The position numbers and the translations under genes were made by a program. Source: Thermoplasmata archaeon (GTDB taxonomy: Archaea > Thermoplasmatota > Thermoplasmata > Lutacidiplasmatales > UBA184). Taken from it: a stretch of 36,475 nt of DNA. The notes beneath the pieces were generated by a model that ran no database searches, was not told the origin of the DNA, and saw only the letters and a program-made list of their open reading frames with translations. Of the stretch, positions 16,599 to 18,812 are shown in pieces. The stretch lies in the NCBI GenBank assembly GCA_021812305.1, contig JAKAOB010000006.1:1-36475 (forward strand), in the 5' to 3' direction. Numbering within the stretch: position 1 is the stretch's first letter; each line of letters opens with the position of its first letter.

Positions 16599-17276
16599 AT
16601 GAGCTCCCCCCTTCCTGTCCAAGAGGTCGCTTCCCGGCTCAAGACCGGCACGACGACGATCGGCCTCGTCCTCAAGGACGGGGTCGTCATGGCCTCCGAG
16701 CGCCGTGCGACCGACGGCAGCTTCATCGCCAACAAGAACACGGTCAAGGTCTTCTCCCTCGACCGCCACCTCGCGGCGACCGTCGCCGGGGGCGTCGGCG
16801 ACGCGCAGGCGCTGGTGCGCTACCTGCGCGCCGAGGTCGCGCTCTACCGGCTGCGGCGCGGCGGCGCGCTCCCGGTCGAGGGGGCGGCGACGCTGCTCGC
16901 GAACATCCTCAACGGCAACCGCTACTTCCCCTACTACGCCTGGCTGATCGTCGGAGGCGTCGACGGAAAGGGCGGCCACGTCTACTCCGTCGATCCGGCC
17001 GGCGGTTCGATGGAGGACCGATTCGTTTCCGTCGGAAGCGGTTCGACCTTCGCCTACGGGATCCTGGAGGAGGGCTACTCGCGCGACCTCGGCGTCGCCG
17101 AGGGTGTCGACCTCGCCCTGCGCGGCCTGACCGCCGCGATGAAGCGGGACAGCGCGAGCGGGGACGGCTACATCATCCACGCCATCACCGCGAAGGAGTA
17201 CCGCGAGTACTCGGACGACGAGATCCTGCGGCGGCTCAAGGCGCTCAAGATACCGCCCCCGCCGGCGCTTCCCTGA
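16599..17276 (+). CDS. psmB: Proteasome beta subunit
   Basis: Propeptide then KTG|TTTIGLVLKDGVVMASERRATDGSFIANKNTVKVFSLD; TATA-like GGTTAATAG upstream. Confidence 0.96.
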   Translation: MSSPLPVQEVASRLKTGTTTIGLVLKDGVVMASERRATDGSFIANKNTVKVFSLDRHLAATVAGGVGDAQALVRYLRAEVALYRLRRGGALPVEGAATLLANILNGNRYFPYYAWLIVGGVDGKGGHVYSVDPAGGSMEDRFVSVGSGSTFAYGILEEGYSRDLGVAEGVDLALRGLTAAMKRDSASGDGYIIHAITAKEYREYSDDEILRRLKALKIPPPPALP

Positions 17277-17346: not shown

Positions 17347-17355
17347 ATTTATATT
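17347..17355 (+). promoter_or_regulatory. TATA box of the RHH-ftsZ operon (GATTTATATT)
   Basis: Strongest AT island in the local intergenic region, about 60 nt upstream of the RHH ATG. Confidence 0.65.
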
Positions 17356-17374: not shown

Positions 17375-17406
17375 TTGTCAGACAAAGGAGCAATCAACGT
17401 CTGACG
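17375..17406 (+). promoter_or_regulatory. Twin palindromic operator candidate TTGTCAGACAA ... CGTCTGACG
   Basis: Two perfect odd palindromes centred at 17380 and 17402 (22 bp apart), with GTCAGAC and GTCTGAC cores that are reverse complements; between TATA and ATG. Confidence 0.6.
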
Positions 17407-17410
17407 CAGA

Positions 17411-17779
17411 ATGGTCGATACCTCCGAGCGCGTCACAGTACGGATCCCCCAGGACCTCCTCGAAAAGCTACGCCAGATCCAGCTCGCCAAGGGGACCGCC
17501 ACGATCTCCGACACGATCCGGGAAGGGCTCGAGCGGTACATCGAGGTGAACCTTCCTCCGCCGAACATCCGCAAGGTCGTGGTCGACCTCTCGCGGCAGG
17601 ACAACCGCCAGCTCGAGGAGTTCGTCCGCGAGGGCAACAGCGTCTCCGTCGACGACGCGGTGCGCTCGGCCGTGCGGGAGTACATCCGGGCCCGGGTCGA
17701 GCATCTCGCCGCCACGTCGGCACGCCCCCGCCGGGACTCCGAGACCGTCGCGGCGGCCGAGGGCCCTCCTCCCCCGTAG
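17411..17779 (+). CDS. Tandem ribbon-helix-helix DNA-binding protein (CdrS-like candidate)
   Basis: ERVTVRIPQDLLEKLRQIQLAKGTATISDTIREGLERYIE followed by a second RHH-like unit IRKVVVDLSRQDNRQLEEFVREGNSVSVDDAVRSAVREYIRARV. Confidence 0.88.
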   Translation: MVDTSERVTVRIPQDLLEKLRQIQLAKGTATISDTIREGLERYIEVNLPPPNIRKVVVDLSRQDNRQLEEFVREGNSVSVDDAVRSAVREYIRARVEHLAATSARPRRDSETVAAAEGPPPP

Positions 17780-17795
17780 GGGCCGGGAGGCGGGC

Positions 17796-18812
17796 ATGGA
17801 CGACTCGATCGAGGCCTGGGCGACCTTGGCCCACCGCAACGCCTTCGCGGTCGTCGGGCTCGGCGGTGCCGGGGGCGATGCGGTCCACGACATGCTGACC
17901 CTGGGGATCCCGGGAGTCCAGGCCATCGCGGTCAACACCGACGCGCGCCACCTCAAGGACAAGCCGATCGATGAGCGGATCCTCCTCGGCCACCGCCGGC
18001 TGCGCGGGAGCGGCAGCGGAGGGGACCGGTCCGTCGTCCTCGAGGCCGCGGAGGAGAGCCGGGAGGAGCTCGTCCGTCGCCTCGGCCGATACGAGATCGT
18101 CTTCCTGTTGGCCGGCCTCGGCGGTGGGACCGGCAGCGCCCTTCTCCCGTTCCTGGCGCGCACGCTGAGGGAGACCGAGCGGACCCTGCCGGTCCCCATC
18201 GCGTTCCTCCCGTTCCAGATCGAGCTCGAGACGAACGCGGACCGGCGCGACAACGTCTTTGCGACCCTCGAGGAGCTCGAGGAGATGGGAGGGCTCGTCC
18301 TGGCCCTCTCCAACGAGAAGCTGCGGCGCTTCGAGGCGCTGCCGCTGCCCCGGGTCTTCCAGGTGCGCAACACCTACCTGCACAACCTCGTCACCAGCCT
18401 CGTCGACATGGTCGAGAACCCCTCCCAGCTCAACGTCGACCTGGCCGGGCTCAAGGGCCACCTGAGGGAGGCGGGCCTCTCCACGCTCCTGCACGGGGAG
18501 TACCACGTCACGGAACCGGACCGCCTCGTCCACCAGGCGTTCTCCGAGACCCTGCTCGACTTCTCGCTCCCCGAGCGGGCGAGCGCCCTCGTCCACCTGG
18601 ACGGCGGGTCGAACATGACCCTGCGCACCCTCGAGCGGGTCCTCTCCTGCTTCCGCCGCCGGCTGGGGGAGCCGCGGCGCCTCCTCTTCGGCACCCGGGT
18701 GCACCCCGAGCGGCGCGAGGTCGTCCGCATGACCGCGGTCGTCGGCGGCCTCAAGCCGCGGACGATGCGGGACGCGCTCGACCGGGCGCCCTCGATCGCC
18801 GAGCCCGCCTAG
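17796..18812 (+). CDS. ftsZ: FtsZ-family cell division GTPase
   Basis: VVGLGGAGGDAVHDML, AVNTDARHL, LAGLGGGTGSALLPFL (tubulin/FtsZ signature), NADRRDN, T7-like NVDLAGLK. Confidence 0.92.
   Translation: MDDSIEAWATLAHRNAFAVVGLGGAGGDAVHDMLTLGIPGVQAIAVNTDARHLKDKPIDERILLGHRRLRGSGSGGDRSVVLEAAEESREELVRRLGRYEIVFLLAGLGGGTGSALLPFLARTLRETERTLPVPIAFLPFQIELETNADRRDNVFATLEELEEMGGLVLALSNEKLRRFEALPLPRVFQVRNTYLHNLVTSLVDMVENPSQLNVDLAGLKGHLREAGLSTLLHGEYHVTEPDRLVHQAFSETLLDFSLPERASALVHLDGGSNMTLRTLERVLSCFRRRLGEPRRLLFGTRVHPERREVVRMTAVVGGLKPRTMRDALDRAPSIAEPA

Follow-up and report, generated by a model that had tools for sequence, protein, structure and literature searches.

A soil archaeon of the Thermoplasmata (order Lutacidiplasmatales) encodes a protein with two RHH units directly upstream of an FtsZ-family protein that lacks the second catalytic Asp, and conserved GTCNGAC sites precede this gene pair as well as further promoters that we predict to be its targets. 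On comparative sequence grounds, we consider it probable that the pair is a tandem-RHH variant of cdrS-ftsZ2, the regulator of which represses its own operon via GTCNGAC, also controls a canonical ftsZ, and sets the ratio of altered to normal FtsZ. The predicted operator, the further target promoters, the Asp loss in the partner, and a second RHH-FtsZ-like pair in the same genome are new here; all were absent from the first-pass annotation of this DNA.

A tandem RHH gene directly upstream of ftsZ

In the window (the whole stretch of 36,475 nucleotides that was analyzed), the RHH gene occupies positions 17411-17779 on the plus strand and encodes, from an ATG, a CdrS-like protein of 122 aa (ORF list, Pfam, NCBIfam, and AlphaFold2). 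Its stop codon is followed after 16 nt by the start of the partner gene (17796-18812, plus strand, 338 aa). Coordinates and Pfam matches thus agree with the first-pass annotation, which had described a 122-aa two-unit RHH ORF lying 16 nt before an FtsZ-family ORF on the same strand. A TATA-like box, TTTATATT, lies at 17348-17355 on the plus strand, and most of the 79 leaders compared within the genus have an AT-rich box about 63 nt before the ATG. One such box and a 16-nt gap are consistent with a single promoter for the pair.

Pfam RHH_1 matches the 122-aa protein in two separate stretches (E 1.9e-7), which we call unit 1 (residues ~6-47) and unit 2 (residues ~53-102). The strand residues differ between them: unit 1 carries R-T-R (R7, T9, and R11, invariant class-wide), whereas unit 2 carries mostly K-x-V/T-x-D/E, its third strand position being usually acidic in the class-level alignment. 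Two NCBIfam models matched far below their cut-offs, namely aCcr1 on unit 1 (residues 8-44; 22 bits versus 60) and CdrS (NF058555) on unit 2 (residues 58-99; 24.4 bits versus 100). The CdrS model matched 21 of 21 aligned class members (best E 4e-22), and no protein in the six genomes tested exceeded its cut-off. An AlphaFold2 model of the chain, built on a shallow genus-level alignment and of low confidence (pTM 0.38), contained two helix-helix pairs (14-27/32-47 and 65-73/80-102) and a low-confidence tail formed by the last ~20 residues, outside unit 2. Foldseek returned mostly RHH proteins for this model (NikR on top with prob 0.99; Arc, SvtR, and VapB), none with an E value below 0.1. The proposed two-unit fold is therefore borne out, with modest model confidence.

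We then consider how widely the arrangement is shared. An ftsZ gene lies 3' of the RHH gene on the same strand in 79 of 79 genus-level loci, and in 18 of 20, 29 of 29, and 26 of 40 loci of three class-level sets, the third of which was picked to include families without a neighboring ftsZ; the genomes compared are related, so that these counts overstate independence. The expected conservation of adjacency in relatives was thus found, and its class-wide extent excludes chance. The tandem RHH family is present in 191 of 201 class genomes and 75 of 76 genera, a count that takes in weaker paralogous matches; our own genome is ~80% complete. Among the matches listed, those closely related to the RHH protein come from Thermoplasmata MAGs, with 'Candidatus Lutacidiplasma silvani' and UBA184 among them. 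The two genes need not be linked: tandem RHH genes without a neighboring ftsZ occur in families f19 (L206-L213), f30 (L204-L205), part of f8 (L194, L195, L197, and L078), and one f28 genome (L220). Several f19 genomes gave no FtsZ match. At one further locus (L067, G047:C19), ~1.1 kb separates the tandem RHH gene from the next recognizable ftsZ.

Outside the class, tandem RHH genes adjoin ftsZ in families f33, f38, f43, f45, and f49, and a 75-aa single-RHH protein is encoded at ten loci (f32 and f40), with ftsZ following at nine and the tenth being at a contig end. In these sister-class pairs (L424-L433), the RHH gene is likewise immediately upstream on the same strand, and several leaders contain GTCNGAC. 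They differ from the window's operon in having one RHH unit with a helical tail, and a site that is mostly at about -80 to -95 rather than beside the start codon. Single-RHH CdrS-like proteins ahead of ftsZ in sister classes of this phylum make the locus look inherited; the simplest history that the sequences suggest is a single-RHH CdrS-like gene before ftsZ that later underwent internal duplication. On the same grounds we rejected a convergent origin. Of the equivalent or convergently evolved division switch that had been proposed, a CdrS-like RHH-ftsZ operon outside Haloarchaea stands and convergence does not. More distant tandem-like RHH proteins, encoded in other families of the phylum (L438-L442; f41 and f47), have leaders rich in TGTAAT/TGTATT and no ftsZ nearby.

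The proteasome beta gene psmB (16599-17276) lies directly upstream of the operon, and Haloferax CdrS binds the psmB promoter. We rejected psmB as a part of the system because it is not beside the pair in relatives.

The GTCNGAC signal and its predicted targets

Two copies of a short palindrome lie between the TATA-like box and the start codon. Site 1, GTCAGAC (extended, TTGTCAGACAAA), is at 17377-17383 on the plus strand by leader alignment; site 2, GTCTGAC, lies 22 bp further 3' (17399-17405, plus strand) and is inverted, with T rather than A at its center and mirrored flanks. The window has no other GTCNGAC pair (0.03 expected), and a search of the own genome for the double 22-bp motif gave one hit, with zero control hits. 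Each of the 79 genus-level leaders has two or more GTCNGAC sites in this interval, set in DNA that otherwise varies, and the last of them stops a few bases short of the ATG. The step is 22 bp, except for a final step of 21 in two leaders, and some leaders have a third site. The center base is A in 60 of 73 first sites and T in 59 of 73 second sites, again with mirrored flanks, so that one element, slightly asymmetric, occurs here in two opposite orientations.

The signal extends across the class. Among 86 distinct RHH leaders, 77 have at least one GTCNGAC (shuffle mean 1.4, maximum 5), 54 have at least two (shuffle mean 0.02), and nine have none. Steps of 22 bp occur 48 times and steps of 11 or 33 bp five times, which places the sites on the same helix face. 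GTCNGAC ranks first of 64 palindromes of the same shape, the runner-up reaching a count of 9. Many of the tandem RHH genes without ftsZ (f19, f30, part of f8, and one f28 genome) retain it; hence, the sites follow the regulator. Several GTCNGAC double sites also occur on a single contig of another genome (G024:C50:9-20505), perhaps a mobile element that carries the signal.

We suggest that the RHH protein binds GTCNGAC. With the TATA box at 17348-17355, transcription is expected to start near site 1, so occupancy should repress. Bound to this pair of sites, whose spacing is two helical turns, the protein would sit between TATA box and ATG, block its own operon, and thereby hold the levels of both itself and the FtsZ2-like protein. 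In Haloferax, CdrS sites are mostly 41-110 nt upstream of the transcription start, whereas those described here are at or downstream of the expected start, which suggests repression. The regulator could instead activate, as CdrS mostly seems to do in Haloferax, where it binds upstream of the start.

For the two RHH units, we lean slightly toward an intramolecular pseudo-dimer rather than two separate modules: the operator sites are inverted and slightly asymmetric, which fits one asymmetric chain per site. It is quite possible, if short of probable, that the units are instead unpaired within the chain, as in NikR, such that unit 1 dimerizes between chains on each palindrome while unit 2 oligomerizes and bridges the sites 22 bp apart. 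NikR, the best structural match, binds two half-sites about two helical turns apart; its C-terminal domain serves nickel binding and tetramerization instead of forming another RHH unit. The GTCNGAC cores are all perfectly palindromic, R7/T9/R11 are invariant in unit 1 while unit 2 usually has an acidic third strand position, and the strands of the two units are unpaired in the AlphaFold2 monomer model, all as this arrangement would have it. That model is, however, the low-confidence one (pTM 0.38), and the center base and flanks are asymmetric and mirrored between sites, which suits one chain per site. There is also a precedent for pairing within a chain: in F-plasmid TraY the whole RHH dimer fold is made by one polypeptide, and R1 TraY is a single-unit homolog (PMC12117103). 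The tandem regulator resembles F TraY in this two-unit architecture and differs from it in context, TraY being a conjugation relaxosome protein with no FtsZ link and one for which the intramolecular fold has been shown. The NikR-like arrangement rivals the pseudo-dimer in this detail alone and is compatible with autorepression.

Two further classes of promoter carry the signal. First, canonical ftsZ genes of group 1 (MKSIIQEA...; own copy L001:1366-2496) have a GTCNGAC 27-31 nt before the ATG in the own genome and in 18 of 20 further genomes; the remaining two, from other genera of the family, have it at shifted positions. In most genomes this site lies inside a conserved AGCGTATGACGCTCGTCTGACAAAC block. 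Canonical ftsZ genes of group 2 (MRPLAQEIL...) had no conserved GTCNGAC in the leaders compared. The group 1 site belongs in most congeners to an 11-bp composite, GTAYGAC-N4-GTCNGAC, of which 23 of 25 congeners have about two copies per genome (0 control hits). Second, the other copy of this composite lies, in most congeners, in the leader of an operon of two small ORFs (L418, G000:C31:10493-10510, in the own genome; L397-L422). These ORFs encode about 50-60 and 65 aa, the second ending in ...GTPRGYG.RP.LSPEAAAAFAT..D.ARARA..EGRTLVYTVRW. Through the composite, the RHH protein would act on one canonical ftsZ promoter and on the two-small-ORF operon. In many congeners a 28-bp sequence, TGTCCGACACCCCCGGCCGGGGTCAGAC (TGTCCGACACCCCCGG...GGGTCAGAC), recurs in another conserved context (L295, L298, L300, L301, and others).

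In a narrower explanation, the RHH protein would serve its two-gene operon alone, as a local autoregulator, and canonical ftsZ would answer to another RHH protein or to some unrelated factor with a similar target sequence. GTAYGAC, the first half of the composite, does not fit GTCNGAC and may have a different protein as its reader; the own genome yielded a single instance of the double 22-bp operator and moreover encodes a second RHH protein. We nevertheless consider this explanation unlikely. The GTCYGACAAA of the own operator reappears in the second half of the composite, and leaders of the second RHH pair mostly have no GTCNGAC. The 22-bp double site also recurs in three Aciduliprofundum-like genomes (L257, G051:C1:1187451-1188474; L336; L337), and in G051, the one of the three in which the gene behind it was read, it precedes an ftsZ copy without an RHH neighbor.

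A partner FtsZ without the second T7 aspartate

The partner is a member of the FtsZ family by Pfam (Tubulin/FtsZ, E 3e-25; FtsZ_C, E 1e-9) and by fold, the AlphaFold2 model being confident (pLDDT 87.8; Foldseek to FtsZ, E 6e-29). It scored 183 bits against NCBIfam ftsZ TIGR00065, below the cut-off of 295. In a tree that lacked an FtsZ2 reference, M. jannaschii FtsZ1 grouped with solo canonical FtsZs (98/89) and the RHH-linked FtsZs fell outside, those of the window's family as a long-stem clade; the RHH-linked FtsZs are therefore FtsZ2-like by elimination.

The GTP-binding motif GGGTG[T/S] is kept as GGGTGS, and residues 109-114 are invariant in the family alignment (A3). The T7 loop, in contrast, departs from the NxDxx[D/E] motif that holds the residues for hydrolysis (PMC12583498). 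In the window, sequence and alignment place N213-V-D-L-A-G218, against the canonical NxDxxD, at codons 18432-18449 (plus strand), and the second catalytic Asp is gone. This Asp is replaced in 110 of 110 family members (Ser 82, Thr 15, His 5, Leu 4, Gly 2, and Asn 2), all of which keep the first. Sister family f2, of the same order, keeps both; the motif is degraded in some f3, f4, f8, and f25 sequences as well, and T7 degradation may have occurred more than once in the class. Invariant GTP loops and a dN/dS of 0.09 versus the nearest relative indicate a selected protein and not a decaying gene. We predict from these residues that the partner binds GTP and hydrolyzes it poorly.

The RHH protein would then set the ratio between a hydrolysis-competent FtsZ1-type protein and a partner without the second T7 Asp, which would co-polymerize and hydrolyze poorly. 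In its fullest form, which we put forward as a doubtful extension, a one-chain asymmetric pseudo-dimer would read phased GTCNGAC sites and fix the ratio of FtsZ1 to a hydrolysis-dead, co-polymerizing FtsZ2-like protein, and division in the order would be tuned by the dose of this inactive subunit. Alpha/beta-tubulin, with hydrolyzing and non-hydrolyzing interfaces, is comparable to such a hypothetical copolymer.

The own genome contains a second RHH-FtsZ-like pair (L003:775-2235, G000:C12), in which a 167-aa RHH protein with one clear RHH_1 match is encoded 33 nt before a 307-aa FtsZ-like protein. The latter is more divergent and has no recognizable T7 motif. Comparable second pairs occur in many class genomes; their leaders share no common GTCNGAC, which is mostly absent. 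Canonical FtsZs had no RHH neighbor at the loci read.

Such a recurrent pairing of an RHH protein with a tubulin homolog might also describe a DNA segregation cassette, in which the RHH protein is a centromere-binding adaptor and the tubulin homolog a filament motor (compare ParR-ParM and TubR-TubZ). RHH adaptors are known for other motors, as in ParR and SegB, and both the gene order with autoregulation, like that of partition operons, and the second pair in the genome would suit this role. We judge it highly improbable: one to three promoter-proximal operators stand in place of an iteron array, the same motif lies at canonical ftsZ promoters, the partner family lacks the catalytic Asp that a dynamic motor should need, and the pair is broadly conserved on chromosomes across the class.

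Relation to known division regulators

RHH genes near archaeal ftsZ2 have been published: the cdrS-ftsZ2 pair has been traced across the archaea, with the exception of DPANN (PMC7439475), ftsZ2 occurs 'frequently with parD' (PMC8178401), and RHH_1 usually accompanies ftsZ2 (PMC9871819). Outside Haloarchaea, a CdrS-like operon is therefore not new. In the literature searched, which covered few subscription papers, we found no report of the tandem form, its operator, or the FtsZ Asp loss.

As in the haloarchaeal CdrS-FtsZ2 system (Darnell 2020, PMC7439475; Liao 2021, PMC8406309), an RHH_1 gene lies directly upstream of an ftsZ other than ftsZ1 and is probably co-transcribed with it. Haloferax CdrS also binds the ftsZ1 promoter (PMC8406309), and the ftsZ1 promoter is a predicted target here. 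The regulators differ in size, 122 aa in tandem here versus a single domain of 55 aa there, and the partner in the window's family lacks the catalytic Asp. The Sulfolobales aCcr1 is likewise an RHH cell-cycle regulator that acts on a division gene (cdvA); it differs in having a single RHH and in serving ESCRT-based division.

The timing of FtsZ-based division in archaea is known mainly from Haloarchaea. With a class-wide DNA signal before the regulator and other ftsZ genes, the proposed regulon becomes open to experiment in those members that are in culture, such as Aciduliprofundum. A conserved FtsZ in which the GTP-binding motifs persist and one catalytic Asp does not offers a natural experiment on the need for hydrolysis in division, and the tandem RHH protein may illustrate one way in which a homodimeric regulator can become a single-chain one.
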